A DNA stretch of 64,000 nucleotides from Panorpa germanica (taxonomy: Eukaryota; Arthropoda; Insecta; Mecoptera; Panorpidae). The number at the start of each line of letters is the position of its first letter. Position 1 is the first letter of the stretch. The stretch lies in NCBI GenBank assembly GCA_963678705.1, contig OY783205.1, positions 6,386,001-6,450,000 of the forward strand, in the 5' to 3' direction. The notes below the pieces were generated by a model. That model saw only the letters and a program-made list of their open reading frames with translations. It was not told the DNA's origin and did not search any database. Positions 41,594 through 58,976 of this stretch are shown one piece after another. Both the position numbers and the translations under genes were made by a program.

Positions 41594-41679
41594 TTTTTTT
41601 TACTTTTTGTACAATGCTTATAGAGAAACAATTGTGAAGTGTTATAGACCAAACCAGAACCTTATATATATAGTGTGAT

Positions 41680-41724
<45 letters not shown>

Positions 41725-42414
41725 GTTTATTATGTAAGATTAATGGAATTTTTTTCCCCCCCACTATCCCTTTTAATCATCTACTAATTTGAAAAATAAT
41801 TAATATAAAGTTCACACGACTGCAGCTGCATATTGTGGTTTTGCATGTAAAAAAAGGAAACCAATAAGTAAAAAAAATCAAAAAAATTCCATGACGACGG
41901 GGTTGTGGTTTTTTGTAAACGATACTATTAATAAACAACACAAATAATTCTCACGATGACATTATTGTTTTTGGTGATAAACTGATTAAACTGATTGCGG
42001 TTTGGAATGTTGAATTGTAAAGGAAACAATTAAGAAACGATTTTTATGAGAAAAAAATTAGACGACGTTTTGTGGTTTTTTTGTTTCTTTGGGAAATGTA
42101 TTAATTAATTTATAAAAAAATATAATTTTTCTCAAAGGAAGTAGCATTGTGGTTTTCCTATGAACTGATATATATTTGAAGCCCTTCCATAGTGTAAAAA
42201 AAATTATTTTTTAACATCTAATTAAAATTGAAATTATTGTATATTTGTGGTTTAGATAATATGACTTCCTAAAAAAATGTATCTTGCGTAGGAGTAGGTA
42301 AGTAATATATATTGAATTTGTACATATAATTAATTCATTTCATTTAAAAAACTGCTCGAAGTACTTTGAGTTTTTTTGTGTAATAAGTGTTTGAAGAAAA
42401 AAATAAATCTCAAA
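41594..42414. promoter_or_regulatory. Left subterminal region with TGTGGTTT array
   Basis: This 0.8-kb region between divergent genes holds a long TA microsatellite (41682-41718). It also has six copies of TGTGGTTT or TGCGGTTT, all in the same orientation, at 41834, 41904, 41996, 42071, 42148 and 42246. The inverted counterpart AAACCACA/AAACCGCA occurs six times in the right subterminal region (57070-57377). An origin or protein-binding array is a plausible role but is inferred. Confidence 0.6.
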
Positions 42415-43311
42415 ATGCAAAGGTTGGAGATTAACAACGGTGTGGAACAACCCCATATTGATGACTACAGCCAGATGACTATCAGACAGGAACCACATAG
42501 TGAGGAGGAACAACCCCTTGACTACAGCCAGATGGTTATCAAGCAGGAACCGCAGAGTGATGTTGATTATGATGATGATGAAATTAGGACAGTCATTTTA
42601 GATCGTGACAACAACTACAACGCCGACGGCAATGACATTGAGTCAAGAATGTCTCAACAACAACAGCGGCAAAGGCAAGAAGAACTAGATCGTGACAACT
42701 ACAACGTCGAGGACAATGACATTAGGTCAAGAATGTCTCAACAACAACGGTGGCAAGAAGAACAACAGCACCGACACCAACTAATGCAACTACTGCAACA
42801 ACAACAACAACGACAACGACAACAACAACAACAACAACGTCAACAACAACTACAAGAACGTCAACAACGACTACAACAACAACAACAACAACTACAATGG
42901 CAATATGAAGGTTCTAATGCACGACAACGACAAAGACAGCGGCAATATGCAACTGCTGTAGCTGCATATACTGCGTCTTCAAGAGCTAGAACTTTCGTTC
43001 CAAGAGCAAGGTTTCACATACCATCTCCAACGATGATTACAGTTGAGGCATCTAGAAACATAGTTAGCCACCCTTACATACCCAATATTACATTGACCGG
43101 TACAGACAATAAAATGTCACTTCAGCATGTGACAAAGCTAACGGACGCATTCATTGAAAGAATAGCCGATCACACTTCGTATTGGGGTCGTCGTTTCTTT
43201 ATCCCGGCACCACCATTGTTTCTAGGTGATATGTTTATCACCTATCACCGTTATTATAACGGTGAGGGCAAATATTCACCTGAACTACACAAGCGTCTAG
43301 GGCGAGATTAA
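42415..43311 (+). CDS. Gln-rich Maverick protein with C-terminal HWGxP-type domain
   Basis: ATG 42415 opens a 298-codon frame. Residues 1-80 contain a repeated acidic motif (DYSQMTIRQEP, then DYSQMVIKQEP) resembling short sumoylation-like VIKQEP sites. The middle third is almost pure Gln/Arg, encoded by CAA-rich repeats. The C-terminal 60 residues match the 92-codon protein at 41315-41593 (HTSYWGRRFFIPAPPLFL, YSPELHKRLGRD). The protein may bind DNA or act in transcription, but this is inference from composition. It is followed by an AT-rich gap before the fibre-like gene. Confidence 0.75.
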   Translation: MQRLEINNGVEQPHIDDYSQMTIRQEPHSEEEQPLDYSQMVIKQEPQSDVDYDDDEIRTVILDRDNNYNADGNDIESRMSQQQQRQRQEELDRDNYNVEDNDIRSRMSQQQRWQEEQQHRHQLMQLLQQQQQRQRQQQQQQRQQQLQERQQRLQQQQQQLQWQYEGSNARQRQRQRQYATAVAAYTASSRARTFVPRARFHIPSPTMITVEASRNIVSHPYIPNITLTGTDNKMSLQHVTKLTDAFIERIADHTSYWGRRFFIPAPPLFLGDMFITYHRYYNGEGKYSPELHKRLGRD

Positions 43312-43608
43312 TTAAAAAAAGGTATGCTATATTATAAAAAATTTTTTCCCTTACATATTTAACATATATATGAAACTTAAATCTTTTTCTTTTTGTTGCA
43401 GGAGGTGTTTTTTTTGTCTTATATATTTTATTTTATCTTTTTAATTATGTTTATGTTTAATAGTTTTATTTTATCTTTCAATTATGTATATTAGTTTTAT
43501 TTTATCTTTCAATTATGTTTATGTATAATAATAATAATAATAATAATAATTTTGTTGTTTTTTTTTATATATATACTCATAATTATTAAATTGAAAATCA
43601 AAGATACA

Positions 43609-44172
43609 ATGTCAGTCGATAAGTTTGGTCGATATTATTATGAATCTAATAAATATGGTGAAGGGAAAAAATGTCATGGTCTGCCTGGCATTGGATTTGT
43701 TTTAACGGATGATAATAATTATGATATGGAATCGAGGCGATTAGTGAATTTAAGTGAACCGAGTGATGAAAATGATGCAACTACAAAAAAATATGTTGAT
43801 GGAATAATAGAGAACAAAGTAATGGTTAAAGTAGAGGGTTTAATACAGAATTTTTCTAGTGCACATCTGACAAAAGTTGAGGGTTTTATAAATAGTAATT
43901 TAAATGAACAAAATACAAGAAATGCTAAATATAATAATGATATTGTCATATTAAATAGCAAATTAAATAATAGTACAGCGGCTTTAGATAATAAAATTAA
44001 ACAGATAGTTGATGTTATACCGGTAATTATAGATTCAAAAATATCTGGAGCTATAAATAACAAACTTAAAACGGACCTTGATAAAATAATAGAGAAAGCT
44101 GAAACAAAATATGTTTCAGACCAAGTTAGTGCAATTGATAATAAAATTATAAAGGACCGACAAATGAATTGA
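43609..44172 (+). CDS. Tail-fibre-like coiled-coil protein
   Basis: From ATG 43609, 187 codons. Near residues 40-60 it carries LVNLSEPSDENDATTKKYVD, closely matching the N-L-x-x-P-x(4)-D-A-x-x-K-x-Y-V-D motif known from phage tail fibres and some eukaryotic large DNA viruses. The rest is a long polar helix rich in Asn, Lys and Ile, likely a coiled coil (NNKLKTDLDKIIEKAETKYV), fitting a trimeric stalk. No C-terminal head domain is present, so it is short for a receptor-binding fibre. It sits between the Gln-rich gene and the convergent 127-codon gene. Confidence 0.7.
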   Translation: MSVDKFGRYYYESNKYGEGKKCHGLPGIGFVLTDDNNYDMESRRLVNLSEPSDENDATTKKYVDGIIENKVMVKVEGLIQNFSSAHLTKVEGFINSNLNEQNTRNAKYNNDIVILNSKLNNSTAALDNKIKQIVDVIPVIIDSKISGAINNKLKTDLDKIIEKAETKYVSDQVSAIDNKIIKDRQMN

Positions 44173-44398
44173 CATATTTGAGAAAGCTGTAACAAAATTA
44201 ATTTTTGGATAAAATTGAAAAATAAAAACACATAAGTTCGATAATGTTAATTTTTTTTTTATTAATTAATTATACATAAGTTAGATAATATTAATTAATT
44301 TTTTACTTGAATTAGATGTAAATGTGAATCTGAAAAAAATAAACATATCAGTACTTGATATTATTTATATATAATATTTTTTTTAATTCAACACATAC

Positions 44399-44782
44399 CT
44401 AAATATCTATGTCCGTTTCATATCCATCATCGTCATACATTAGGGGTGGTACAATTTCTGCTGCAACATTCGTATGTTCAAGATATACACTATTGGCATA
44501 ACAATGTCCATTTCGCACATGAAATTTGTAATACCCATAAGCATTACCATTCTCCTCATAATATATGCGCACAGTAAAATATGATAAAATAGGGTCAATA
44601 TTTAGTACATTTAGTAGGACGACACCACTAGCTAGATTATTTAACTTAATAAGACACCCCATACGTCCATTATGATATCTTAAACCATATATATATGGTT
44701 CATTAATTGTTGTTGCACTAATATTAATTAATGGTTTTAACTCAACACTTATAAAACGTATGCGTCCACTGCGTCCAGACAT
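44399..44782 (-). CDS. Unrecognised 127-residue Maverick protein
   Basis: Minus-strand frame from ATG 44782 to a stop at 44399. Composition is balanced and beta-rich (RIRFISVELKPLINISATTI, YFTVRIYYEENGNAYGYYKF), with an acidic tail DDDGYETDIDI. I recognise no family. It is convergent with the fibre-like gene (ending 44172) and divergent from the polymerase gene, whose start is 245 bp away. Lack of overlap with other genes and a long frame in AT-rich DNA support it being real. Confidence 0.65.
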   Translation of the reverse strand: MSGRSGRIRFISVELKPLINISATTINEPYIYGLRYHNGRMGCLIKLNNLASGVVLLNVLNIDPILSYFTVRIYYEENGNAYGYYKFHVRNGHCYANSVYLEHTNVAAEIVPPLMYDDDGYETDIDI

Positions 44783-45027
44783 TGTTCTTTTTTTAATGTG
44801 TGTTTCAACGAAATATGTACACAGTAAAATTATCAGTTCCTGTTGTACCCCACTAGTCCCTCACCATCACTCCCCCCTCCTCAACATAAGATGTTTAAGT
44901 TTTTTTGTTTTTTTACACCAGTTGTCTATATATACATATACATATATTCATATATATTGGGCAGAAAATCTAAAACATAAATTAGTAATAGTACTACTAT
45001 CACACAAATCGTTTGAAAAAATTAAAA

Positions 45028-48000
45028 ATGCCACCACAATGGGAAGATATTTGTACAGCATTCAAAATGCGTGTATTTTGTGGAAAATTAGTAAATGTGA
45101 ACCATATAGTTGATCCACTAATATTTATGGAACAGTGCAAAGTTCCACTAATGAATAAAATTGTTGGTTTCTTGTCATCTAATAATCATGTGTTTAAAAT
45201 TCAGTGTCAACTAGTGTGTGAATATTTTGTTCATAAGAATGGCGAAGAGATTATTAGTACAATAGCGCATAATACTAAGATGATTTCTTTAACACTAAGT
45301 GATAATCCAAATGTATGGTTTAGTGAAAATATTATTTCAAGTATAAAGGTGCGATTAGATGAATTTCAAGAGCGTGATAGCGGGAAGTCATTAAATAGTG
45401 TACTATACCTGCAGGTGAACATTAATAAACATAATCCGTTGCATGGAAGTTCCTATCTTCCATTACCACCATCTATAAGTTTTAAAAAAGCTGTGATAAA
45501 TGTTCAAAATATGGACGACAGGTGTTTTTTGTGGGCTATTATTTCGGCGTTGTATCCATCTAAGAATCATCCTGAAAGAGTTTCAAATTATAAAAAAATC
45601 AATCAAAATGAAGTATTCAACCTAAATAATGTAGTATTTCCAATGCAATTGAATAATATATCTAAATTCGAATTACAAAATAATATTTCAGTTAATGTCT
45701 ATGGTCTAGAATTAAATAATAAGCATGTTTGGAATGTAATTGGGCCATTGCATTACACAAAATATAAAAATGCATATAATAAACATGTTAATTTATTATA
45801 TATAAAGAGTGGTAAGAAGGGGCACTATTGTTGGATAACGGACTTAGGTAAACTTATAGGAAGTCAACTTTCTAAGGCAAATGTTAAGAAACATATTTGC
45901 GATCGCTGTTTACAATATTTCTATAATGCAAATAAGTTTCAGTGCCATATAGAGGATTGTAATAAAGTTGATAATGCGGTTAAAATTGAAATGCCTGTGG
46001 GAGATGAAAAGTGGTTAAAATTTAAAAACTATATGAGAAAGGAGAAACACCCTTTTGTTATTTATGCAGACTTTGAATGTTTAACCCTACCCATTGATAC
46101 TTGTGCACAAGATTCTAGTAGATCATACAGTAATAACTACCAAAAACACATTCCGTGTGCCGCTGGCATTCAATTGGTGTGCTCATATGATAATACAATA
46201 TCATTTTTCCAGTCATATTGCGGTAAAGATGTTATAAATTGGTTTTTACAACAACTCAAAATAATTATAAAAGATATTGAGGTACTTTATGCAAATATCA
46301 AACCTATACAAATGACGGATGCCGATTGGTTGGATTTTAATAATTCCATTACCTGTCACATATGTGAAAAACATTTTAACTTAGCAGATGACAATTTTAA
46401 AAAAGTGCGCGATCATTGTCACTTATCTGGTCAATACCGTGGCAGTGCACATTATACATGTAATTTAAATTATCAACAACCAAATTATATTCCTGTTTTT
46501 TTGCATTGCTTAAGCGGCTATGATAGTCATCTTTTTATACGTGATTTGGGAATAGATGATGGGCAAATTGATATTATACCATCAAATGAGCAAAAATATA
46601 TATCATTTAGTAAGACAATTGGTAAATTTAAATTGCGATTTTTAGACTCGTTTAAGTTCATGAACGGGAGCCTAGAAAAACTAGCTAGTTATATGGATGT
46701 ATCAAATTTTACATTATTGAGAAAATGTTTTCCCTCACCAAACGATGATGATAAATTTAATTTAATGATTAAAAAAGGTATTTTTCCTTATGACTACTTT
46801 AATTCATGGGATTCCTTTGACGAAATTAATTTACCATTAAAAGAAAATTTCTATTCCAAGTTAAAAGATGAACATATTTCCAGTGCTGATTATAACCATG
46901 CCAAAGATGTATGGCAAAAGTTTAAAATACAAAATCTTGGTGAATACATGATGCTTTATTTGAAATCGGATGTACTGTTGTTAAGCGACATTTTTGAGAA
47001 TTTCAGAAATGTTTGCTTAAAATCATATTCATTGGATCCCGTACATTATTTTACAGTGTCAGGATACACCTGGGATTGTATGCTAAAAATAACCAATATA
47101 AGGCTAGAGCTGTTAACTGATATTGATATGCTGTTATTTTTTGAGCGTGGCATTAGAGGTGGTATTACCCAGGCTATAAAACGTTATTCATGTGCGAATA
47201 ACCCATATCTGTCTAATTTTGATGTGAATAAGCCAGAAAAATATATAATGTACTATGATGCATGTAATTTGTATGGCTGGGCTATGACGCAATGTTTACC
47301 ATATGGTAATTTCCGGTGGTTAACAAGTTCTGAAATAGAACAGCTTGATATATTAGCTATTTTAGATAATGATTCCAATGGGTATGTGTTTGAAGTAGAT
47401 TTGGAATACCCTAGGGAGTTACATGATATGCACAAAGATTTTTCATTATGCACAGAGAAAATGAACCCACCCGGAACTAATAAAAGCAATATAAAACTTA
47501 TGACTACCTTAACTAATAAATATAAGTATATAATTCATTCTATGAACTTAAAACAATGTGTTACTTTGGGATTAAGAATTATTAAAATTCATAGGGCTAT
47601 AGTATTTTCACAATCATTTTGGCTAAAAAAATATATCGATTTAAATACGGATTTTAGGAAATTATCCAAAAATGATTTTGATAAAAAATTTTATAAGTTA
47701 ATGAATTGCGCCATTTTTGGCAAATCGATGGAAAATATTAGAAAATATAGAAATATCAAATTGTGCACTAGGTGGGAGGGTCGATGTGGAGCACAGAATT
47801 TGATTTGTAGACCCAATTTTAAGAAACTAAGTATTTTTGCGGAAAATCTTATATCTGTTGAATTGAATAAATCATCAATTAAATTTAATAAACCCATATA
47901 TATTGGAATGTGTATTTTAGACATTTCCAAACACTTAATGTATGACTTTTACTACAATTATATACAGAAGACATATAAAGAGGTTACACTGATGTATATG

Positions 48001-48492
48001 GATACGGATTCTATGATTTTGGAAATAATCAATCAAAATCCATATGAACAAATGAAACGGGATATTGCAAAATTTGATACATCTGATTATGCACTAGATA
48101 ACATATTCAATATACCGCAAGCAAATAAAAAGGTTGTTGGCCTAATGAAGGATGAGGCGAATGGTAAAATCATAAAGGAATTTATTGCTTTGCGTGCTAA
48201 AATGTATAGCATCAAAATTGAGGGTGTAAATAAACTTATTGCCAAGGCAAAGGGTGTATCAAATGTTGTTGTAGGTCGCCTTTCTTTTGATGATTACAAG
48301 GACTCACTATTCAATAATAATTTAAATTATAAATGCCAAAATGCAATTAGGTCTAAGGACCATAACTTATACACAATAGAGCAAAACAAACTAGTCTTAA
48401 GTGCTAATGATGACAAAAGGTTTATATTAGTTAATAAGATAAATACATTGCCATATGGCCATTATAGAATAAATGATCTGATAAATGAGTGA
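45028..48492 (+). CDS. polB: Protein-primed family B DNA polymerase
   Basis: ATG 45028 gives about 1,154 residues, the usual size for Polinton pPolB. An N-terminal domain of about 340 residues has a C2H2-like finger (HICDRCLQYFYNANKFQCHI). The exonuclease motif FVIYADFECL is near residue 345. An inserted CxxC/H segment with VRDHCHLSGQYRGSAHYTCN, shared by Polinton polymerases, is near 460. Polymerase motif A, MYYDACNLYGWAM, is near 741, motif B, KLMNCAIFGKSMENIR, near 890, and motif C, YMDTDSMI, near 992. All catalytic motifs look intact. It replicates the element from its termini using a protein primer. A TA microsatellite follows the stop. Confidence 0.96.
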   Translation: MPPQWEDICTAFKMRVFCGKLVNVNHIVDPLIFMEQCKVPLMNKIVGFLSSNNHVFKIQCQLVCEYFVHKNGEEIISTIAHNTKMISLTLSDNPNVWFSENIISSIKVRLDEFQERDSGKSLNSVLYLQVNINKHNPLHGSSYLPLPPSISFKKAVINVQNMDDRCFLWAIISALYPSKNHPERVSNYKKINQNEVFNLNNVVFPMQLNNISKFELQNNISVNVYGLELNNKHVWNVIGPLHYTKYKNAYNKHVNLLYIKSGKKGHYCWITDLGKLIGSQLSKANVKKHICDRCLQYFYNANKFQCHIEDCNKVDNAVKIEMPVGDEKWLKFKNYMRKEKHPFVIYADFECLTLPIDTCAQDSSRSYSNNYQKHIPCAAGIQLVCSYDNTISFFQSYCGKDVINWFLQQLKIIIKDIEVLYANIKPIQMTDADWLDFNNSITCHICEKHFNLADDNFKKVRDHCHLSGQYRGSAHYTCNLNYQQPNYIPVFLHCLSGYDSHLFIRDLGIDDGQIDIIPSNEQKYISFSKTIGKFKLRFLDSFKFMNGSLEKLASYMDVSNFTLLRKCFPSPNDDDKFNLMIKKGIFPYDYFNSWDSFDEINLPLKENFYSKLKDEHISSADYNHAKDVWQKFKIQNLGEYMMLYLKSDVLLLSDIFENFRNVCLKSYSLDPVHYFTVSGYTWDCMLKITNIRLELLTDIDMLLFFERGIRGGITQAIKRYSCANNPYLSNFDVNKPEKYIMYYDACNLYGWAMTQCLPYGNFRWLTSSEIEQLDILAILDNDSNGYVFEVDLEYPRELHDMHKDFSLCTEKMNPPGTNKSNIKLMTTLTNKYKYIIHSMNLKQCVTLGLRIIKIHRAIVFSQSFWLKKYIDLNTDFRKLSKNDFDKKFYKLMNCAIFGKSMENIRKYRNIKLCTRWEGRCGAQNLICRPNFKKLSIFAENLISVELNKSSIKFNKPIYIGMCILDISKHLMYDFYYNYIQKTYKEVTLMYMDTDSMILEIINQNPYEQMKRDIAKFDTSDYALDNIFNIPQANKKVVGLMKDEANGKIIKEFIALRAKMYSIKIEGVNKLIAKAKGVSNVVVGRLSFDDYKDSLFNNNLNYKCQNAIRSKDHNLYTIEQNKLVLSANDDKRFILVNKINTLPYGHYRINDLINE

Positions 48493-48536
48493 TATATATA
48501 TATATATATATATATGTGAAATAAAAAGAAATATAT

Positions 48537-49481
48537 TTAATTTAAATCTGTTTTATTTATCCATGAATTATGTTTATTTTCAAAACCCAACCATTTTACA
48601 AATACTTTATTTTTATTTGTTTTTAAAATCTTCTCCACCAAATATACATCAGTATATTTTGCTTTTTGCAATTCCTTTTCATAAAAGCCCCCCTCAATAT
48701 TTTGGCCGGTTGTGTCCTCCAATTTATAGGTTACCGGATTTGTTCTACACACCTTTTTAATAATAAATATTTCTGTTGACCAATTTGGTTCATAGCCTTT
48801 GCTAAAGAGACTCTTCACTTTGCTAATGCGTACAGAATCACCAATACGATATTTTGATATTCCTGCAATTTTAATGTGATTATAAATAGTGTTAAGTAAT
48901 TTTTTTTCGACTTTTTTCGATGTCACATCAATTGGTTTCATTTTTATTGTAGAATGTTTTGTATTATTATAAGTTTGTAATAAGTCCTCTAATATATTTA
49001 TCCATTTATGTGATCCTTGATAGCTAAATTTTTTCCACATATTAGTTTTCAGGGTCCTGTTAAATCTTTCGCATACACTGGCCTTCATTATTGAATATGT
49101 AGAATAATGTTTTATATTATATTTTTTCATAATTTTATTAAAAGTTGCATTATAAAATTCCTTTCCATTGTCTGTTTGCAAAAATTTCGGTATACGGCCT
49201 CCATCCAAGATATTAATAAAAGCATTTGTAACATCATTACCAGTTTTTGTTTTTATGGCTTTAGCCCATGCATATTTTGAGAAAACATCTATTACGGTAA
49301 GCATATATTTATAACCTTTATTTTCAGATGCATAAGGTATCATTTCAACCAAATCACATTGCCATAGGTCATCAATACCTTTTGTTATTACTCGTCTACG
49401 TGCATATTTTTTATACGCTGGTTTATGGATTTCTTCAACTATTTGTAATTTTATATCTTTTTTTTTATTATTATTGGTCAT
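48537..49481 (-). CDS. int: Retroviral-type integrase with chromodomain
   Basis: 314 residues from ATG 49481. The start resembles the usual Polinton integrase (EEIHKPAYKKYARRRVITKG). The catalytic triad is D43 (WQCDLVEM), D104 (LQTDNGKEF) and E139 (ASVCERFNRTLK), a D,D35E spacing. Residues about 212-262 form an SH3-like DNA-binding region, and about 278-314 a chromodomain (VYLVEKILKTNKNKVFVKWL). It would insert linear element DNA with 6-bp duplications. It is convergent with polB (45 bp between stops) and lies 13 bp beyond the stop of the upstream DUF8207-like gene on the same strand. Confidence 0.95.
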   Translation of the reverse strand: MTNNNKKKDIKLQIVEEIHKPAYKKYARRRVITKGIDDLWQCDLVEMIPYASENKGYKYMLTVIDVFSKYAWAKAIKTKTGNDVTNAFINILDGGRIPKFLQTDNGKEFYNATFNKIMKKYNIKHYSTYSIMKASVCERFNRTLKTNMWKKFSYQGSHKWINILEDLLQTYNNTKHSTIKMKPIDVTSKKVEKKLLNTIYNHIKIAGISKYRIGDSVRISKVKSLFSKGYEPNWSTEIFIIKKVCRTNPVTYKLEDTTGQNIEGGFYEKELQKAKYTDVYLVEKILKTNKNKVFVKWLGFENKHNSWINKTDLN

Positions 49482-49494
49482 TATTGATATTTAT

Positions 49495-50328
49495 TTATTC
49501 AATTATATGTGATTCTCTTAACTCTTCAATGATAGATATAATTTCATTATCATGACCTGTATGACCAGCCTGTTTTGAGCCTAATAATAATCTTAAACGT
49601 TCAACTAATTCATTAGCATCATTCCAATAAATATACTCATTATTTTTATTCGATACTATTTTATGTGATGGTGATATTAATCCTTCACCTTTTGTTTTTA
49701 AATTAAGGGCTGGTTTAATTATCTGTACGTATTTCCATCCCGCATTACCACTTATTTGACCATTAGGATCATAACTACGTCTATATGCGTTTGTATCTTT
49801 AATGATATTGATAAAATTTTCCTTATCTTCTTCCGTATAACCTAGTGGTTTTTTCAATTGTAATAGTTGATATAGGCCTTCTGTTCCAGCATACAATTTA
49901 CTATTAATGACTATATTATTATTTTCGATTGTTATTGGCGTTTTACCAATAAAGAATTTATTGTCACCACCTATAGTAATTCCATATATTTTATCTTCAA
50001 TAGGTTGATTTATTAAATATCTAAATGCGATATCACCAATGGACTTAACACTATTGGCATCAACTAAATGTGGTTCATTATTTTTATATGATGACAACTT
50101 CTTATCATCATATTCATCATCATCATCAATATTTTCTTTTTTTTTTTTTTTTTTTAATGCATTATGTTGTGATTTTATCTCTACAAGTGGTTCTGTTATA
50201 GGCTTAAATATTTTTTCCAAATCTTTTTGCTCTTCATAATCACTATATTTTAGAGCTTTATATTTTGAACGAATTATTTTACTCTTTGCAATAATATCTT
50301 TTAATATGTCATTATTATTATTAAACAT
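49495..50328 (-). CDS. DUF8207-like Maverick protein
   Basis: From ATG 50328, 277 residues. The N-terminal third is charged and coiled-coil-like with a Lys run encoded by an A-rich homopolymer. The rest has the pattern of the DUF8207 proteins found in arthropod Polintons: YAGTEGLYQLLQLKKPLGYT, NIIKDTNAYRRSYDPNGQIS, KYVQIIKPALNL, and the C-terminal NELVERLRLLLGSKQAGHTG plus IISIIEELRESHII. Function is unknown; a structural or DNA-associated role is only a guess. The gene lies between the ATPase and integrase genes on the same strand. A TA microsatellite separates it from the ATPase gene. Confidence 0.8.
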   Translation of the reverse strand: MFNNNNDILKDIIAKSKIIRSKYKALKYSDYEEQKDLEKIFKPITEPLVEIKSQHNALKKKKKKENIDDDDEYDDKKLSSYKNNEPHLVDANSVKSIGDIAFRYLINQPIEDKIYGITIGGDNKFFIGKTPITIENNNIVINSKLYAGTEGLYQLLQLKKPLGYTEEDKENFINIIKDTNAYRRSYDPNGQISGNAGWKYVQIIKPALNLKTKGEGLISPSHKIVSNKNNEYIYWNDANELVERLRLLLGSKQAGHTGHDNEIISIIEELRESHIIE

Positions 50329-50349
50329 ATTTTCGAGTTGTTTTCTTTT

Positions 50350-50383
<34 letters not shown>

Positions 50384-50453
50384 AGCAGATAGCTAGACAA
50401 AAGTTATCATTCAACTAAACGATTTACTACTAAATATTCTATTATATATATAA

Positions 50454-51149
50454 TTACAGTTTCAAGAAATTATCAAATCCATTTCTATATCGTCCGTTAG
50501 CGATATCGCTATCCTTATCAATGACCACATATCCATATTTATTTTTCCAACATTCTGAACAGAACTCTTTAAAGGTTAAAAATGACATATCTGTATTTAC
50601 ATGATCATTATAAATATGCTTAAGATTCATTTCGTCCATTTTAAATAATATTATAAAATTTGCATTATCTCTGATTAAATGTTTTGGTATATGGGCATAG
50701 GTTTGACAAAGATAAAAGGAATCAACTAGGGAATGACGTCCCATTGAGAAATAATTACGCATACAATCTTGTTTATCAGTAATTACATCATCAAAGATAA
50801 ATACAGAATTTGGTTTTGCATCATTGGACTTAATAATATCAATGTTACTGTCATAACAAAAATAGCCTATTTCTTTCACATGTGATAACACTTTTTTTAA
50901 AAAAATATATTTTGGTTGATATAATGATTTGGAATAGAGATATATATTTCTAAATTTTAAACCATTTTTTTCAAATAAAAGAGCCAACATGATATTAGTT
51001 TTTCCAGAATTCGATGGCCCACATATAATACATCTTATACTATTTGGTAGTAAATCGCCATGTTTTTTCACTTTCTTTTTTTTATCATTTTCATCTAAAT
51101 TATCTAGATTTGCAATATGCAAATGTTTTTTTTGCTTTATAAATTTCAT
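50454..51149 (-). CDS. FtsK/HerA-type genome-packaging ATPase
   Basis: 231 residues from ATG 51149. Walker A, GPSNSGKT, is at residues 44-51, and Walker B, VFIFDDV, at 116-122. The downstream sensor-like region is FYLCQTYAHIPKHLIRDNAN. Length and motifs match the A32-like packaging ATPases of Polintons and related large DNA viruses, which pump DNA into the capsid. It is divergent from the PLA2-domain gene with a spacer of only 59 bp containing a short TA repeat, which may serve as a shared late promoter. Confidence 0.94.
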   Translation of the reverse strand: MKFIKQKKHLHIANLDNLDENDKKKKVKKHGDLLPNSIRCIICGPSNSGKTNIMLALLFEKNGLKFRNIYLYSKSLYQPKYIFLKKVLSHVKEIGYFCYDSNIDIIKSNDAKPNSVFIFDDVITDKQDCMRNYFSMGRHSLVDSFYLCQTYAHIPKHLIRDNANFIILFKMDEMNLKHIYNDHVNTDMSFLTFKEFCSECWKNKYGYVVIDKDSDIANGRYRNGFDNFLKL

Positions 51150-51208
51150 TGTATATATATATATGCACGTGTTACTTATATATTACATCATTTAATGCTT
51201 AGACACCA

Positions 51209-52024
51209 ATGATCATATACCATGGTGAGGGCTTATTAAATAGGGCCATAAATTCATTGCCTATAGAATTACATATGCCCGGTTATAATTTTTGTGGTCC
51301 AGGAACAAAGTTAAAAAAACGTCTGTTACGCGGTGACAATGGAATTAATGATTTAGATAATGCATGTAAAGAGCATGATATTTCTTATTCTAAATCGAAA
51401 AGTGATTTAAAGTTAAGACATCACGCGGACAAGATATTGCAGGAAAAAGCTTGGTCAAGAGTTGTATCCAAAGACGCCTCTATTAAGGAAAAAGCGGCTG
51501 CTTGGACAGTTACTAATGCAATGAAAATCAAACAGAAATTAGGTATGGGCATCAAGAGAAAAAACAAGAAAAAAATTAACATGAAATTGGAAACAAATCA
51601 TAATACGTTTAGGAAGGCTATAAGAAGCGCTAGTGCGGCAATAAAAAAATCGAAAATAAAAAATACAAGTACTGCAATAAAAGTTGCATTGAAAGCTGCA
51701 AAAAAAATCATTAAAGGAAAAAAACCGAATATTAAGTCACGAATTATACCAATTCCTAAAACAGGTGGAATTCTTCCCTTTCTAATACCATTATTCGCGG
51801 GATTATCAGCCGCGGGGGCCCTAGCGGGTGGTGCTGCTGGCATAACAAAGGCTGTTACAAGCGCTAATGCGGCAAAGAAAAAATTACATGAATCAGAGAG
51901 ACATAATAAGATGATGGAGGCCATCGCATTGGGTAAAATGGATGGTAAAGGTCTTTACTTAAAACCTTATAGAAAAGGTTTGGGCCTTTACTTATCACCA
52001 CCACCGACAACAAAAAACTATTAA
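51209..52024 (+). CDS. PLA2-domain capsid-associated protein (0-frame product)
   Basis: 271 residues from ATG 51209. Residues 22-62 match a phospholipase A2 fold of the parvoviral VP1 type: calcium loop CGPGT (29-33) and catalytic CKEHDISY with His56-Asp57. A strongly basic middle region (GIKRKNKKKINMK; KAAKKIIKGKKPNIKS) suits nucleic-acid binding or nuclear targeting. A Gly/Ala-rich hydrophobic stretch (FLIPLFAGLSAAGALAGGAA) suits membrane interaction. The tail repeats GLYLKPYRKGLGLYLSPPP. It probably acts in entry or core packaging. The stop at 52022 comes one codon after the slippery heptamer A AAA AAC (52012-52018). Confidence 0.88.
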   Translation: MIIYHGEGLLNRAINSLPIELHMPGYNFCGPGTKLKKRLLRGDNGINDLDNACKEHDISYSKSKSDLKLRHHADKILQEKAWSRVVSKDASIKEKAAAWTVTNAMKIKQKLGMGIKRKNKKKINMKLETNHNTFRKAIRSASAAIKKSKIKNTSTAIKVALKAAKKIIKGKKPNIKSRIIPIPKTGGILPFLIPLFAGLSAAGALAGGAAGITKAVTSANAAKKKLHESERHNKMMEAIALGKMDGKGLYLKPYRKGLGLYLSPPPTTKNY

Positions 52025-52068
52025 AAATATCAGTTAAAGATTTACCTAAGAGGGCTTTAACTGATATT
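52012..52068 (+). promoter_or_regulatory. Putative programmed -1 ribosomal frameshift signal
   Basis: The heptamer A AAA AAC at 52012-52018 is in phase with the PLA2-protein frame (codons ACA AAA AAC). A 7-nt spacer follows (52019-52025). Then a perfect 14-bp stem pairs 52026-52039 (AATATCAGTTAAAG) with 52055-52068 (CTTTAACTGATATT), with a 15-nt loop that can itself form CCT/AGG. A -1 slip enters exactly the protease frame. The 0-frame stop lies one codon downstream. All three parts of a canonical signal are present. Confidence 0.8.
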
Positions 52069-52407
52069 GATTTAAATAAATATGCAAAAAAAATCCCCTA
52101 TTTTAGAGGTATTTTCATGCGTAATTCATTACCAAAGCATCCATATGAAAATGAATGTGCCATAATAAATTTAGATAATAAAACGGGCCCTGGAACGCAT
52201 TGGGTTGCATACAGAAAATTCAAATCGAATATTGAATATTTCGATAGTTTTGGTAACCTGGGGCCACCTAAGGAATTGCTCGAATATTTTCTACAAAGAA
52301 ATTTAAATAAAAACAAAATAATTTATAATTATAAAAAATTTCAAAATTATAATACATATAATTGTGGACATTTATGCCTAAAGTTTTTAATAAATACTAT
52401 GAAATAA
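52018..52407 (+). CDS. Adenain-like cysteine protease, expressed by -1 frameshift
   Basis: The protease frame is open from about 51973 to the stop at 52407, but it has no ATG before 52117. That ATG lies inside the conserved region (PYFRGIFMRNSLPK). The conserved N-terminus (KDLPKRALTDIDLNKYAKK) is encoded upstream of it, directly after the slippery site. Catalytic His is in GTHWVAYRK, the acidic position in EYFDSFG, and Cys in NCGHLCLKFL, as in adenovirus-type maturation proteases. A -1 slip at 52018 adds 129 residues to the PLA2-domain protein. It likely processes capsid proteins. Alternatives are a decayed start codon or internal initiation at 52117 giving a 96-residue, N-truncated enzyme. 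Confidence 0.85.
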   Translation, partial: LLKISVKDLPKRALTDIDLNKYAKKIPYFRGIFMRNSLPKHPYENECAIINLDNKTGPGTHWVAYRKFKSNIEYFDSFGNLGPPKELLEYFLQRNLNKNKIIYNYKKFQNYNTYNCGHLCLKFLINTMK

Positions 52408-52431
52408 GATTCTTTTTATTCATTATCAATT

Positions 52432-53136
52432 ATGTCCTCGACCTTTACACTTAGTGGTAATACATCCATATTAAGCACAAATTATTTTCCACCCATTGAA
52501 TTGGATAGGAAATTTGAATATGTACTCGGATTAGTTGATTTACAAACATATAATTCAATACTGAATGTCCATGAGAAAAATAATCGATTTTATTACAATG
52601 ATGAAGTTCTAATAATACCTGAAGGCTCCTATGAAATTGATGACATATATAAGTATATAAATAACACAATAAGTAAGAACAAGTCACTTAAATATTTTCT
52701 TACTATAAATGCCAATAATAATACGCTTAAATGTGAAATAATAAGTTCGTTGGTGATAAATTTTGAAAAGGAAAATAATATTGGTTCACTATTGGGTTTC
52801 AAAAAGAAAATATTGCAACCACATACAAATCATATATCCGATTTGCCCATAGATATTTTGGGTGTAAGTTCAATACAAATTGATTGTAATATTATAAGAA
52901 ATTCTTATAGAAATAACCAACTGATACATATAATACATCAATTCTTTCCTGTTGTGCCGCCTGGTTATAAAATAGTGGAAATACCCTCCAATGTAATATA
53001 TTTACCCGTAAATGTTCATACAATCAATAACATAACATTGAAACTTATTGATCAAAACGATAAGTTAATTAATTTTAGAGGTGAAAATATTACAATAAGA
53101 CTGGAATTAAAGAAAATATCAAAAAATGGGTATTGA
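52432..53136 (+). CDS. Minor capsid (penton-like) protein
   Basis: 234 residues from ATG 52432. The N-terminus FTLSGNTSILSTNYFPPIEL and the stretch VLIIPEGSYEIDDIYKYINN match the single jelly-roll penton/minor capsid proteins of Polintons and adintoviruses, followed by beta-rich sequence (IGSLLGFKKKIL, INNITLKLIDQNDKLINFRG). It would occupy capsid vertices. It lies 25 bp after the protease stop, and its end overlaps the start of a small ORF at 53126. Confidence 0.88.
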   Translation: MSSTFTLSGNTSILSTNYFPPIELDRKFEYVLGLVDLQTYNSILNVHEKNNRFYYNDEVLIIPEGSYEIDDIYKYINNTISKNKSLKYFLTINANNNTLKCEIISSLVINFEKENNIGSLLGFKKKILQPHTNHISDLPIDILGVSSIQIDCNIIRNSYRNNQLIHIIHQFFPVVPPGYKIVEIPSNVIYLPVNVHTINNITLKLIDQNDKLINFRGENITIRLELKKISKNGY

Positions 53137-53306
53137 TTTCAATATAAATACTGTAACAAACATAAACAGAATTAGTACGCTGCCTGTGGAGGATCAAGCC
53201 ACATGTAAAAAAAAAAAGAAGAATAATTAAAAAAAATAATAATAAACTATCGGTTATTAATAAGCAATTTTTAATTGCACAAGGATTTAAATTGAAGGAA
53301 AAATAG
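53126..53306 (+). pseudogene. Small capsid-cluster ORF, split at an 11-A homopolymer
   Basis: ATG 53126 overlaps the penton stop by 11 bp. It encodes MGIDFNINTVTNINRIST-type sequence for 34 codons and stops at 53230 after an 11-A run (53207-53217). In the +1 frame the sequence continues with a basic segment and KQFLIAQGFKLKEK to a stop at 53306, just before the MCP start. A small basic ORF ending in a similar FL..GFK motif is, as I recall, common next to capsid genes of Polintons. The break is a one-base frame change within the homopolymer: a real indel, an assembly error, or slippage. Confidence 0.5.
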
Positions 53307-53315
53307 AAAAAAATC

Positions 53316-54527
53316 ATGAGTAATATTTTAAATATTAATCAAAAAGCCACATTTGATAATACAATTAAACGTGTGGAATGGCATAATTATATCCCATATG
53401 CGGCCACAAGCTATGATAACAATGATGAGATAAGAATTCCAATTCATTTTCAAGATATTTATACGTCACCATGGGACAGCTATATAACCATTGAGGGTAA
53501 TTTGTTAACAAAAGACGGTGCTGCACTTCAATCGCATAACGCCAAATTATGCAACAATGGATTCGCATTTTTGTTTGATGAAATAAGATATGAATTGTTT
53601 GGAATTGAAGTTGATAAAGTTAAAAATGTAGGCATTACAACCACAATGAAGGGCTATGCTTCTTTAAATAGCACTGATAAGATTGGATATGCAATCGCTG
53701 GATGGGATAATAGTGCTTCAATTATAGATAAAAAAGGTTATTTCAGTGCATCTATACCATTGAAATTGCTCTTAGGCTTTGCAGAGGATTATAAATTTAT
53801 GATAGTAAATGCTAAACAAGAACTAGTATTGATAAGATCTAGAAGTGATGCTAATGTTTACATATCTGAAACAGAATACAAAATTAATATAGCTAAAATT
53901 CAATGGCGTATAAAACATATACTTCCAAGTGATGAGGAAAGATTAGTATTATTAAATAAATTAAATAAAATGGATCCGATTGAAATATCGTTTAGAAGCT
54001 GGGACCTTTATGAATATCCTATGCTGCCAAATACTGATAAGCAATTGTGGACAATTAAAACAACAACCCAATTGGAGAAACCACGTTATATTATTTTAGC
54101 ATTTCAAACAAAAAGACATAATTTGCATAATGCAAATACAAGTGCATTTGATCATTGTAATATAAGAAATGTAAAATTACATTTGAATTTAGAATATTAT
54201 CCATATGAAAGTTTAAATATAAATTTTAGCAAAAATCAATACAATATTTTATATGAAATGTATCTACAATTTTCAACTTCATATTATCATAATAATAAAT
54301 ATAATCCATTTTTAACGTGGTCAGACTTTAAAAATACGGCACCATTAATAGTAATTGATTGTTCTAAACAAGATGATGCATTAAAACATGGAACTGTTGA
54401 TATCAAATTAGAATTTGAATCTTCGGAAAACTTTCCACCGGATACTACTGCATTATGTCTTTGTCTTCACGATAAAGTATTAGAATATATTCCCTTGTCT
54501 GGAATAGTTAGACCCACTTATAAATAG
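53316..54527 (+). CDS. Major capsid protein, double jelly-roll
   Basis: 403 residues from ATG 53316. The N-terminal block VEWHNYIPYAATSYDNNDEI followed by RIPIHFQDIYTSPWDSYITI is diagnostic of Polinton major capsid proteins. Further blocks FLFDEIRYELFGIEVDKVKN, HILPSDEERLVLLNKL and NVKLHLNLEYYPYESLNI follow in the usual order. The tail LCLHDKVLEYIPLSGIVR is also conserved. Length is slightly below typical but covers both jelly rolls. It forms trimeric capsomers. It is the last core gene of the plus-strand capsid cluster and is followed by the metalloproteinase gene 44 bp later. Confidence 0.93.
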   Translation: MSNILNINQKATFDNTIKRVEWHNYIPYAATSYDNNDEIRIPIHFQDIYTSPWDSYITIEGNLLTKDGAALQSHNAKLCNNGFAFLFDEIRYELFGIEVDKVKNVGITTTMKGYASLNSTDKIGYAIAGWDNSASIIDKKGYFSASIPLKLLLGFAEDYKFMIVNAKQELVLIRSRSDANVYISETEYKINIAKIQWRIKHILPSDEERLVLLNKLNKMDPIEISFRSWDLYEYPMLPNTDKQLWTIKTTTQLEKPRYIILAFQTKRHNLHNANTSAFDHCNIRNVKLHLNLEYYPYESLNINFSKNQYNILYEMYLQFSTSYYHNNKYNPFLTWSDFKNTAPLIVIDCSKQDDALKHGTVDIKLEFESSENFPPDTTALCLCLHDKVLEYIPLSGIVRPTYK

Positions 54528-54571
54528 CATTGTTTTTTAATATAGATTAGTATAACTTTGCTATTGCAAGA

Positions 54572-56143
54572 ATGATGTTCTCCCGTTATATTATTATTAT
54601 TTTATTTTTAAATGTATTCTTATATAGTCAGGAGTTAGATATTAAGCAATATTTATATGAATATGGCTATTTAGAATTTAATAATGAGAGTGAATTGCAA
54701 TTAATTGGACCGGATAATATTAAATATTTGCAGGCATTAGCTTTATTTCAAGAAAATTTTAACATAAATAAAGATGATAATGCATTGAATGAAACTATAG
54801 CACTAATGAAGGCTCCAAGGTGTGGTGTATCAGATAGTGCAATGTTAAATCATGCTAATAAACTAAAATGGGATAATCATAATATCACATGGCATTTCCA
54901 TCGAGCACCACCGAAACTATTACAACTCGCTCAATTAGCCTTTGATGTATGGTCTGAACATGCAAATATTAAATTTATACATAATTTTACTAATGTCAAT
55001 ATTCTATTAAGTTTTGGCACTAGGCGACATAATAATTTTCAACATTACAAACAAAGAAGTAAATGTAGTGCAATTTTCGATGGTCCTGGAGGCATTATAG
55101 CGCATGCTGATTTCCCTGAAAAAAATAACCTGTACAAAGAAATACATATAGATAATGATGAGACATGGAATATAGAAATAAAGCCAAATGAAGAGAAATT
55201 AAATTTATTACATGTATTGATTCATGAAATTGGTCATTCTATTGGTTTTCATCATACTCAGAATACCAATTCAATTATGTATCCAATTTATTCATATAGA
55301 AATGTTAGTTCAGAATTAGTATTAGATGAGGAAGATATAAACTCAATTAGTTCACTATATGGTAAAAAAAAAATTAAACGGGTATCAAATAATAGACCGC
55401 AAGAAACGACCACAGAAGAAGTGAGTACAGAATCTATTGCGGTTACAACAATATCAACCACAACACACTCTAAAGATAAACCAAATATATATCCAGATTT
55501 ATGCAAAGTGAATAACTTAAATACATTTTTAATCATTAATGATATGCTCTATGTATTTTATAAAAGATATGTTTGGATCAAAGAACTTAATAATGAAAAA
55601 TATAGTTCCGAACCTTTTCTGATCACCGATTGGCTAAAATTTTTACCTGAAAACTTTACAGAGATAACAGCCATTTATAGACGGCCCAATGGAAATATTG
55701 TAATAATTATAGAAGCAGAAACATATAATATAAAATTTCCATCTTTACAATTAGATAACATTGTAAAACCATATTCAAATAATATAAAAAATATACAGGG
55801 TATTGTTCACACAAATACCGGAAACACTTATCTGTTTTATGATAACACATACTATTTAACAATATCTGAATGTGAATATAGAACAATTGAATACGGTAGA
55901 ATTGATAAAAAATTTATAGGTATACCATCTAATATTGATGGCGTATTCAAATATACAAATGGTAGAATATATTTTTTTAAAAATAATAATATCTATTATG
56001 AATATAATGAGTTTACAAATGCTATTGAAAAAGCCGGTGAATTTAGTCCTTCAATCTTTAATATAAATTGTCCAAACATATCAATTTTGCAACAATTACA
56101 AAATTTATTATCAAAATTAGCCGACTATAATTTTATTAATTAG
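54572..56143 (+). CDS. Secreted matrix metalloproteinase with hemopexin domain
   Basis: 523 residues from ATG 54572. The first 20 residues are a hydrophobic signal peptide. The prodomain ends with the cysteine switch PRCGVSD (82-88). The catalytic zinc site HEIGHSIGFHH is at 218-228 and the Met-turn MYP at 236-238. A Thr-rich hinge (about 278-300) leads to a four-bladed hemopexin-like domain (about 304-500) bounded by Cys311 and Cys500. All catalytic residues are present, so a secreted, latent protease is predicted. The gene lies directly after the capsid gene on the same strand. MMP genes are known from animals and some insect baculoviruses. Here it looks like captured cargo with codon use as AT-rich as its neighbours. 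Confidence 0.93.
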   Translation: MMFSRYIIIILFLNVFLYSQELDIKQYLYEYGYLEFNNESELQLIGPDNIKYLQALALFQENFNINKDDNALNETIALMKAPRCGVSDSAMLNHANKLKWDNHNITWHFHRAPPKLLQLAQLAFDVWSEHANIKFIHNFTNVNILLSFGTRRHNNFQHYKQRSKCSAIFDGPGGIIAHADFPEKNNLYKEIHIDNDETWNIEIKPNEEKLNLLHVLIHEIGHSIGFHHTQNTNSIMYPIYSYRNVSSELVLDEEDINSISSLYGKKKIKRVSNNRPQETTTEEVSTESIAVTTISTTTHSKDKPNIYPDLCKVNNLNTFLIINDMLYVFYKRYVWIKELNNEKYSSEPFLITDWLKFLPENFTEITAIYRRPNGNIVIIIEAETYNIKFPSLQLDNIVKPYSNNIKNIQGIVHTNTGNTYLFYDNTYYLTISECEYRTIEYGRIDKKFIGIPSNIDGVFKYTNGRIYFFKNNNIYYEYNEFTNAIEKAGEFSPSIFNINCPNISILQQLQNLLSKLADYNFIN

Positions 56144-56218
56144 GAGAAATAAAACAAAATTGTATTTTATTATACATATATATATATATATTAATAAAAA
56201 AAAAGATAATACATGAAA

Positions 56219-56548
56219 TTATTGTGTTTTATTTACATCATAAAATAATATAGCATATAAATCTTGTTGTACAAAATTTGAATAATAAAAAAGCATTTCC
56301 ATATAAGCTAAATTTATCAGTGTATTTGCTTTATCATTACTTTCATCATCTTCATTTATAGATTTATTTATAAAATCAAATGATTTTTCATTTGATAATA
56401 CTGCTAGTCTCATTATTTTTAAATAATATTCATTAAAATTTAAACTACTTAAATGATTTATATGTCTGTTTAACATAGTGTTTATTTTTAAAATACATAT
56501 AAAAATTTTCTTATTAAAACAAAATTCATTATTCATCCATGATATCAT
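56219..56548 (-). CDS. Unrecognised 109-residue Maverick ORF
   Basis: Minus-strand frame from ATG 56548 to a stop at 56219, predicted mostly helical (NRHINHLSSLNFNEYYLKI, INLAYMEMLFYYSNFVQQD) with an acidic segment INEDDESNDKAN. No family is recognised. It is convergent with the metalloproteinase gene and begins only 20 bp from the open frame of the IAP-like gene on the other strand. The all-helical character would be compatible with many functions; none is claimed. Confidence 0.5.
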   Translation of the reverse strand: MISWMNNEFCFNKKIFICILKINTMLNRHINHLSSLNFNEYYLKIMRLAVLSNEKSFDFINKSINEDDESNDKANTLINLAYMEMLFYYSNFVQQDLYAILFYDVNKTQ

Positions 56549-56568
56549 TAAATTCCTTTTATCTTTAA

Positions 56569-57030
56569 TTAGACACGAATGAAATTCATGCTGGAGAAAA
56601 AGACACTACAATTTGCTTTTATTGTAATGGGGGATTAAAACTTTGGAAAGAAACCGATGTTCCATGGGAAGAACATGCATTACATTTTTATAATTGTGCA
56701 TATGTTATATTGTTAAAAGGTAAATCATTTATAAAATACATAGCATCAGTGAAAAATAGAATACTTACACCTGAAGAAATTATTCGTATTAAGAAAAGTG
56801 TGCTTCCATCTCATCCTCGACCTGTATTTCAATCACATAACACCAATATAAATGAAAAATGTCATTTAAGAGATATTAAATTGTGTAATATTTGTTATTT
56901 TCAACAAAAAGAAATTGCCTTTATTGCATGTGGACACATTATTGCATGCATTAAATGTTCCGTATCCTTAAAAAAATGCCCAAAGTGTTATATGCCATAC
57001 AATGGCTTAATGAAAATTTCCATTGTTTAA
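56569..57030 (+). CDS. Inhibitor-of-apoptosis-like BIR-RING protein, 5'-truncated
   Basis: The open frame starts after a stop at 56566 and has no early ATG. It encodes the C-terminal half of a BIR domain (CFYCNGGLKLWKETDVPWEE, then HALHFYNC with the zinc-ligand C-x2-C, H and C pattern) and a C-terminal RING finger (CNICYFQQKEIAFIACGHII, then CIKCSVSLKKCPKC). This matches IAP proteins of insects and insect DNA viruses, which block caspases and ligate ubiquitin. The first BIR half is missing. CCTTTTATCTTTAATTAG just upstream looks like a 3' splice site, so a distant 5' exon is possible. Otherwise the gene is truncated and could be expressed only as a RING fragment. Confidence 0.8.
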   Translation, partial: LDTNEIHAGEKDTTICFYCNGGLKLWKETDVPWEEHALHFYNCAYVILLKGKSFIKYIASVKNRILTPEEIIRIKKSVLPSHPRPVFQSHNTNINEKCHLRDIKLCNICYFQQKEIAFIACGHIIACIKCSVSLKKCPKCYMPYNGLMKISIV

Positions 57031-57380
57031 CAAAAAAAAAAACCAAAAAAACCAAAAAAAAACAACTTTAAACCACACAAAGGAATGTGTTGATAAGATA
57101 CCGTTTTTATTTAATTTTTAATTGGCATAAACCGCAAAAAAATATATATGTTTCCGTGGAAATTTCCATTGTTTAACAAAAAAAAAACCAAAAAAAAACA
57201 ACTTTAAACCACACAAAGAAATGTGTTGATAAGATACCGTTTTTATTTAATTTTTAATTGGTATAAACCGCAAAAAAATATATGTTTCCAGTGGAAATTT
57301 CCATTGTTTAACAAAAAAAACAACTTTAAACCACACGCCCACACACAAAAAATAGTTTTTAATTGACGTAAACCACAAAA
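57009..57380 (+). repeat. Tandem repeat duplicating the IAP 3' end, with AAACCACA motifs
   Basis: Three copies of a unit beginning AATTTCCATTGTTTAACAAA start near 57013, 57162 and 57296. The first copy includes the last codons and stop of the IAP frame. The units share ACTTTAAACCACAC and TATTTAATTTTTAATTGG. The third is shorter. Each unit carries two AAACC(A/G)CA motifs (57070, 57129, 57206, 57265, 57328, 57370), in inverted orientation to the left array. Confidence 0.75.
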
Positions 57381-57590
57381 ATAATCTATGTTTCCGGTAT
57401 ATAATTGTCACAGGAAGGGGAGGGGGGTGGGGGGCTTGTACAATTTTTTTTTGTTACCAAGGAAAAAAATTATAAAGAAGTGGAGGGGGTTGAAAAATGT
57501 ATATATAAGTTCATGTTAACAATGATCTATTAATTAGTACATTGTTTACCGCTAAAAGTAATTGATCGTTGGGACTAGAAGAAAAAAAAT

Positions 57591-57911
57591 ATGGATCTTT
57601 TGGAAAAATATATGGATCTTTTGGAAAAATTAAATAATCTCGCTGTACAAAAGGAAGTAAGGGTTCTATCAAGCCTGGAAGCCGGATCCTATTACAAAAT
57701 TCTAAATTTCCAACCAAACGATGGCCGTTATGGAAAAAAAGGAGTAATGATGGAACTTGAAGATTTCTATATTTTCCTGAATCAACGCTTTAAGAAATTA
57801 ATGGGGGACAAAGACCTACCTAGATTAAACGAAGAAGCACGTGAAGGAAATCTAAAACTACACATCATCAGACAAACTGGAACTAATACCCATTTTTCAT
57901 TTGTACGTTAA
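57591..57911 (+). CDS. Small Maverick protein, possible OB-fold
   Basis: 106 residues from ATG 57591. The first 21 bp are tandemly duplicated (MDLLEKYMDLLEKL), giving a second in-frame ATG at 57612. The core has ALxxGxYYKI-like sequence (LSSLEAGSYYKILNFQPNDG, RYGKKGVMMELEDFYIFLNQ, RFKKLM), with the strand pattern of small arthropod-element proteins that may be OB-fold single-strand DNA binders. That assignment is inference. It lies between the tandem-repeat region and the right TIR and is transcribed outward, mirroring the 92-codon gene at the left end. A TATATAA box at 57500-57507 is suitably placed. Confidence 0.6.
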   Translation: MDLLEKYMDLLEKLNNLAVQKEVRVLSSLEAGSYYKILNFQPNDGRYGKKGVMMELEDFYIFLNQRFKKLMGDKDLPRLNEEAREGNLKLHIIRQTGTNTHFSFVR

Positions 57912-58069
57912 GTTAATATAATAATATTTTTTTCATTGATATAAAAATATGTACACAACAAAAAAAATGTAAATATAAATACTGTAATATACTTAATATA
58001 AACTTTAATCACACCACTAAAAATGAAGGGTTGGGGTGTGTGTGTGTGTATGTGTGCGGTGGTTTTCTT

Positions 58070-58976
58070 ATCAGATTTTTTATAGTCCTTTTTTCTAATC
58101 ATATATATATATATATATAATGTATTTTTTTTTTTTTAATATTTACAATAAAACAAAAATTATCCTAGTTTTTTTTAACAACAAAAAAGTGTTTTATTTC
58201 AAATTATATGTTTTTATTTTTTTTTTTTTTACCTATGATTTTATTCCGTTCTATGTTGTTCCATTCTGCATTGATTTTATTTTTTATTTTTTTTACCTGT
58301 GTGATTTATACCGTTCTATGTTGTTCGCGAGAAATTTTACCTTTGATGTTGTTCTCACGAGAATCGAACTCGAAGCGCGAATAGGGTGTTATAGAATATT
58401 TTTTTTTTTTTTTAACACAACTTAACCAACTAAGCCATCCTAGGTGGCACAATATTTACATGTTAATAAAATTCTTTCATTTCAACCAAACAACCAGTAG
58501 TTGTCAAAATGTTAGTAAACAATTCGTAATACAGACTTTTTTACACCCACACACACACACACACACACCTGACCCCCCACGACACAACCCTCTGACCAAC
58601 CCCACACCTACCACACACACAGACAGACAGACACCTACCCCACCCATACACCTGACATACACACACCTGCTGCTGCTGATAACTGACCTACCCCACACAC
58701 ACACCTGAACAACCCCCCTTGACCACCCACCCTGACAACACCACCACCCTTGACCACCCCTGACAACAAACACCCTTCAACAACACCCCCCTTAACCCCA
58801 CCCCTGCGGGGTGACCTTGACCCCTGTGACCTTGACCTACATGACAAGATAATGACAAGATAACCACAACTGATAAGAGGGTGTCATCCTTACGGTTATC
58901 TACATGACAAGATAATGACAAGATAACTAAGGTGTCATCCTTCCGGTTGGCCCAGGATCCCTATAACTTATCTACT
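58070..58976 (-). repeat. Maverick right terminal inverted repeat
   Basis: Inverted copy of the left TIR with only a few differences: one extra TCAAGGTCA-containing block near 58810-58832, microsatellite lengths, and scattered substitutions. Its inner boundary is near 58070, where GTCCTTTTTTCTAATC still matches the left side. Confidence 0.92.

Follow-up and report, generated by a model that had tools for sequence, protein, structure and literature searches.

A probable programmed -1 ribosomal frameshift site at the junction of the PLA2-domain and adenain-like protease genes of a Maverick in Panorpa germanica

The window analysed here, a stretch of 64,000 nucleotides from the genome of Panorpa germanica to which all positions refer, contains a complete Maverick/Polinton element (40416..58976). 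The long terminal inverted repeats (about 0.86 kb, 40416-41278 and 58101-58976) and the 6-bp target-site duplication (ATGAAC, 40410-40415 and 58977-58982) expected of a Maverick/Polinton were both found, as was the gene set that marks these elements: rve integrase, packaging ATPase, adenain-like protease and double jelly-roll capsid protein. The integrase (48537..49481, minus strand; PF00665, E 3e-13) has a weak C-terminal chromodomain match (PF00385, E 0.002, under the cutoff), and an A32-like packaging ATPase is encoded on the same strand at 50454..51149 (PF04665, E 9e-13). On the plus strand lie a PLA2-domain protein of 271 amino acids with the C-terminus TTKNY (51209..52024; PF08398, E 5e-13; 2031 homologs), an adenain-like cysteine protease (52012..52407) and the double jelly-roll major capsid protein (53316..54527; PF21738, E 8e-113). 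A further open reading frame of 1159 amino acids (45013..48492, plus strand) is probably PolB, judged by its size and a weak match to Endonuclease_7 (PF02945, E 0.004); a POLB with an Endonuclease_7 match is reported in a passage on insect Mavericks (PMC5803895). The Pfam search of the open reading frames of the element returned no PolB match for it.

Other sequences in and around the element were also recorded. Parts of a BEL/Pao retrotransposon flank the Maverick on both sides (38180-40351 and 59286-61802, both minus strand). One part has DUF1759 and DUF1758 together with a weak match to an aspartyl protease, the other Peptidase_A17, DUF5641 and an integrase, and the Maverick appears to have inserted into this retrotransposon with duplication of ATGAAC. 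Inside the Maverick, a 523-amino-acid reading frame (54572-56143, plus strand) encodes a matrixin-type metalloprotease (PF00413, E 7e-33, and a weaker resemblance to hemopexin) and seems to be a host-type gene taken up by the element.

The genes for the PLA2-domain protein and the protease overlap in different frames. The PLA2 frame, taken as the 0-frame, ends with ACA AAA AAC TAT TAA and thus carries the heptamer A AAA AAC in phase at 52012..52018, followed by a 7-nt spacer (52019..52025) that holds TAT and the stop TAA (52022-52024). Directly behind the spacer, a perfect 14-bp stem (52026-52039 pairing with 52055-52068) encloses a 15-nt loop (52040-52054), the stem-loop spanning 52026..52068. 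The protease is read in the -1 frame, which opens just 13 codons 5' of the heptamer and comprises 131 amino acids counted from it. No ATG precedes position 52117 in this frame, and the first one (52117..52119, residue 36) lies already inside the domain and the fold, 3' of a conserved LPxRALTxxDL motif. Both an in-phase X XXY YYZ heptamer and an overlapping -1 frame without a start of its own, as expected for -1 frameshifting, are thus present. Heptamer, spacer, stem, loop, stop codon and startless protease frame had been pointed out in a first-pass annotation of the sequence, and all of them were confirmed. In phase, A AAA AAC occurs only twice in nine open reading frames scanned (10,728 nt), both times in the PLA2 frame, at its end and at 51559-51565 (plus strand). 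Asparagine codons in seven reading frames of the element are AAT rather than AAC by 179 to 27, yet the heptamer uses AAC. PMC5009743 counts A_AAA_AAC with the heptamers most prone to shifting on the cytoplasmic ribosomes of mammals; the words 'polinton', 'maverick' and 'adenovirus' do not occur in the portion of that article considered here.

When the 18.5-kb element was scanned for perfect Watson-Crick stems of at least 11 bp with loops of 3-30 nt, the junction stem was the sole one outside (TA)n-type repeats. Folding of 52012-52090 gave -16.2 kcal/mol (z = -4.3), and none of 200 shuffled sequences was equally stable; on longer or shifted stretches the z-scores were -3.2 and -2.8, each with one in 200 shuffles as stable. 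Under a harder null, in which the protease frame was synonymously recoded so that the protein was kept, a 14-bp stem was reached in 30 of 20,000 trials.

The segment between heptamer and internal methionine appears to be a genuine part of the protease. The protease as a whole has a Pfam match just above the cutoff (PF02902, E 3e-4) and 2544 homologs, and its predicted structure (mean pLDDT 87) has the adenovirus proteinase fold, the best match among solved structures being adenovirus 2 proteinase with its cofactor peptide (1nln, E 1.5e-6). His, Asp and Cys residues, which we take to be the catalytic ones, are invariant in 21 protease sequences, so that fold and residues are those of an adenain (C5). 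Helix 18-25 and most of strand 31-36 of the model fall into the segment without ATG; a product starting at ATG 52117 would lack both and therefore would not be expected to be a whole enzyme. Among five pairs of copies from a second, diverged lineage in the same genome (described below; L057 was left out), dN/dS from heptamer to internal methionine ranged from 0.08 (L031 and L092) to 0.33 (L031 and L043), with 5 to 11 changes per pair. In comparisons of the window with L031 or L092, synonymous changes in this part have reached saturation and dN amounts to 0.09-0.13. Judged by these few changes, the stretch evolves as coding sequence in the -1 frame under purifying selection.

When the 464-Mb genome was searched with the protease, at least 150 places were scored. 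Among the 150 listed, 22 belong to the family of the window (family 1, window counted) and 128 to the second lineage with 68-71% protease identity; no further lineages appeared among the matches listed for the queries P0044 and P0036. Altogether 68 loci were considered, and 67 were read for the A-run (L026 and L028 were read separately and L103 was left out; L059-L088, which largely repeat places scored earlier, were not counted, and L001-L008 are unrelated places with the heptamer). The heptamer is exact in 19 of the 22 family-1 copies, the exceptions being L024 with A7, L027 with A8 and further changes, and L030 with a damaged run. Apart from L030, these copies are 98.6-100% identical to the window across 1.4 kb; several carry frame-breaking lesions elsewhere in the PLA2 or protease gene and are therefore partly decayed. 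In the second lineage, where 46 copies including a subgroup found with P0044 were read and 45 could be parsed, the run is A6C in 44 and A6T in one. Here the PLA2 frame ends with CCA or TCA AAA AAC and stops after two further codons, and the protease again runs on in the -1 frame without an ATG. Taking both lineages together, an in-frame ATG between heptamer and FRG motif is absent from 64 of 65 parsed copies, and the one exception (L025) is a point mutation. An open frame of 401 amino acids, which fuses the two genes directly, was found at two of the 150 places listed, L024 (C7:3810764) and L027 (C7:4445968). An assembly error in the A-run was considered as the cause of the split and ruled out, as the other 148 places are not fused.

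The comparison across related copies that the first-pass annotation had proposed thus came out differently for its two parts. Both diverged lineages have the heptamer in phase and the protease in the -1 frame without an ATG, whereas the 14-bp stem, which was to be compared as well, was found only in the family of the window. Within this family the stem shows one substitution (L025, in the outermost pair) and three loop positions vary. A candidate stimulatory structure 5-9 nt past the heptamer is present in this family, and no comparable hairpin at normal spacing was found in the three second-lineage copies folded (L031, L092 and L089). A simple scan of the same three copies gave no pseudoknot at normal spacing better than shuffles; the best candidates of L031, L092 and L089 were matched by 33, 19 and 21 of 40 codon shuffles, respectively, and were rejected. 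Folds of the whole stretch had z-scores from 0.15 (L089) to -1.96 (L092). L031 and L092 contain a hairpin of 10-12 bp about 60 nt 3' of the heptamer, over the codons for IPxFRGVF, which is disrupted in L089. It is because of this hairpin that L092 folds better than L089, and 7 of 200 shuffles were as good as the L092 fold on one stretch and 25 of 200 on another. With no strong structure seen at this spacing, the second lineage may frameshift at low efficiency; slipping there would need nothing beyond the heptamer and be inefficient, or a stimulator of another kind escaped detection.

Collections of viral and prokaryote contigs contained no relatives at the DNA level, so that comparison of DNA is confined to this one genome; beyond it, signs of a conserved heptamer come from proteins. 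Lys-Asn occurs within the last 12 residues in 116 of the best 120 of the 2031 PLA2 homologs, against about 8% expected from its rate elsewhere, and after thinning of the homologs at 65% identity it was present in the last 9 residues in 49 of 52 clusters. Among these 116 proteins the residue before the terminal Lys-Asn is Ser, Pro, Thr or Ala in 103, and what follows is a stop, Phe, Tyr, Cys or Trp in 100. For 235 internal Lys-Asn pairs of the same proteins, the corresponding values are 27% for Ser, Pro, Thr or Ala before and 3% for Phe, Tyr, Cys or Trp after. What Ser, Pro, Thr and Ala have in common is NCN codons, and what a stop, Phe, Tyr, Cys and Trp share is a first base T; therefore the conserved unit looks like the nucleotide sequence C A AAA AAC T, as read from proteins that are related and not independent of one another.

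Relatives of the protease with an ordinary start had been named beforehand as evidence against a frameshift, and here the picture is mixed. When 2023 relatives were ranked on the catalytic part, 83 of the best 120 start at the internal methionine and have no upstream start, 10 start between this position and LPxRALT, and 27 at or before LPxRALT, where gene callers may write M for TTG or GTG. In four of the best 120 of the 2544 protease homologs (P0058, P0070, P0088 and P0112), a PLA2 tail stands in frame with the protease; such fusions need no frameshift, yet they show that the fused protein exists in nature. Close relatives of both parts are P0122, a 97% PLA2 homolog of likewise 271 amino acids, and P0002, a 99% protease homolog without upstream start; the longest contig listed for each has 2847 bp, probably one and the same contig.

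Several other mechanisms could in principle account for two overlapping frames, and each of them is weaker than ribosomal frameshifting. RNA polymerase might lengthen the A-run by one A in some transcripts, from which the fusion would be made by standard translation. The homopolymer is present, and L024 and L027, with A7 and A8, fuse the frames, so that run length does change. However, A6 is kept in 64 of the 67 copies read (19 of 22 in family 1 and 45 of 45 parsed in the second lineage), Lys stands before the terminal Lys-Asn in only one of the 116 relatives, which indicates that longer runs are not favoured, and transcriptional slippage has no need for a conserved AAC in an AAT-rich element; it is very unlikely to be the explanation. 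A splice that takes out the stop and joins the frames is extremely unlikely. Family 1 does offer six frame-fusing GT-AG pairs, 56-95 nt apart, within 160 nt of the FRG codons, but a scan of donors near the junction found no pair common to the five sequences tested and none at all in L043, and every candidate in L031, L089 and L092 would remove the conserved LPKRALTD wholly or in part. Independent initiation of the protease is about as improbable as transcriptional slippage, whether ribosomes were to start at a codon other than AUG, to reinitiate once past the PLA2 stop or to use the internal ATG 52117. The 27 relatives that begin at or before LPxRALT speak for it, and a TTG near LPxRALT in some second-lineage copies might be a weak start; this TTG is TTA in other copies of the lineage, though, the segment ahead of ATG 52117 is conserved and part of the fold, and the overlapping frames and the conserved heptamer would be left unexplained.

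That the gene is simply broken, an ancestral in-frame fusion having been split by loss of one base in the A-run and then spread by transposition, would fit the in-frame fusions seen in the four relatives and in two copies of this genome. The same split is found, however, in two lineages whose proteases differ by about 30%, the sequence on either side of it is under purifying selection, and protein evidence points to it in many relatives, which makes decay barely credible. Another proposal is compatible with the other alternatives and concerns why the site is conserved: the terminal Lys-Asn-(Phe/Tyr/Cys) could be a peptide motif, for instance a cofactor tail for the protease, with the heptamer as a by-product. 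Phe, Tyr and Cys dominate after Lys-Asn, whereas Ser and Leu, whose codons can also start with T, are rare, and the solved structure of adenovirus proteinase includes a cofactor of 11 residues (title of 1nln). Against this, Ser, Pro, Thr and Ala before Lys-Asn are unlike as side chains and alike in their NCN codons, a stop is as common as Phe or Tyr after Lys-Asn, and the missing ATG is left unexplained. As a full account the peptide motif is unlikely, and the preference for Phe, Tyr and Cys may in part be a peptide constraint.

Programmed -1 ribosomal frameshifting at the junction, yielding a PLA2-protease fusion, is thus very probable. This was the core of the first-pass reading, and it is supported by two lineages at the DNA level in one genome and by protein-level signs beyond. 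Most ribosomes would terminate at TAA 52022 and release the PLA2 protein, whereas a minority would undergo tandem slippage on A AAA AAC, one base back into the protease frame, and make nearly the whole PLA2 protein fused to the adenain-like protease. A full-length protease would be obtainable only by frameshifting. In the family of the window the stem would be expected to raise the rate of slipping. The fusion could bring the protease into the particle, where self-cleavage might set it free. Actual slippage of ribosomes at this site, the product ratio resulting from it and the delivery of the protease to the particle are points that we infer.

Retroviruses such as MMTV, BLV and HTLV types use -1 frameshifting between gag and pro, and their structural gene carries A AAA AAC at its end. 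The Maverick junction resembles this arrangement in the heptamer, its position and the protease in the -1 frame, and in the family of the window also in the stem-loop after a 7-nt spacer. Unlike a retrovirus, the Maverick is a transposon of dsDNA; its protease is a cysteine protease of adenain type and not an aspartic one, the partner is a PLA2-domain protein, and in the second lineage no strong structure was found. The adenovirus proteinase (1nln, 1avp) has the same fold as predicted for the Maverick protease and is, unlike the predicted fusion, presumably made as a separate gene product.

The assumption that no such signal had been described in Polintons/Mavericks proved nearly right. No description of a PLA2-protease frameshift was found in titles or abstract starts of the literature searched, and frameshift passages in the part of the Polinton literature examined deal with mutations, with search settings or with elements of other kinds. 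The exception is a 2024 preprint (PMC11071296), which presents KnotInFrame-predicted -1 frameshifts in Penton reading frames of adintoviruses and mentions 'a similar relationship' for potential Hexon-Adenain ('Hexain') fusions; because of it, the novelty is partial. The preprint deals with the same broad virus group and with adenain as a candidate C-terminal extension, but the upstream genes are others, and the section concerned relies on KnotInFrame prediction with no test of conservation. The insect elements Sf Maverick 1 and 2 have the same protein set, and a table lists PRO (133 amino acids, 408 nt) next to CAP (PLA2); the passages concerned mention neither a frameshift nor a missing start (PMC5803895). 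Maverick particles have not been observed according to PMC8097293, and Mavericks may or may not still build them. A conserved recoding signal that couples the protease to a probable structural protein would imply selection for regulated particle assembly, and the junction is a short sequence open to assay.

A broader proposal seems reasonably likely, namely that a large clade of Mavericks and adintoviruses (of insects, to judge from the few that are named) uses a frameshift at a conserved C A AAA AAC T, where the PLA2 gene ends, to produce its maturation protease. This would be a Gag-Pro strategy in dsDNA virus-like transposons, whose lineages would switch between a frameshift, a fusion in frame and a start of the protease's own; if true, the logic of Gag-Pro would reach into the adenovirus/Polinton lineage. 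Many adenains in databases would then be annotated too short, with the real N-terminus ahead of any ATG, and annotation based on ATG would truncate these proteases. An example might be P0283, a TPA adenain from the adintovirus of a Megastigmus wasp, which begins at the internal methionine and comes without the conserved N-terminal segment.
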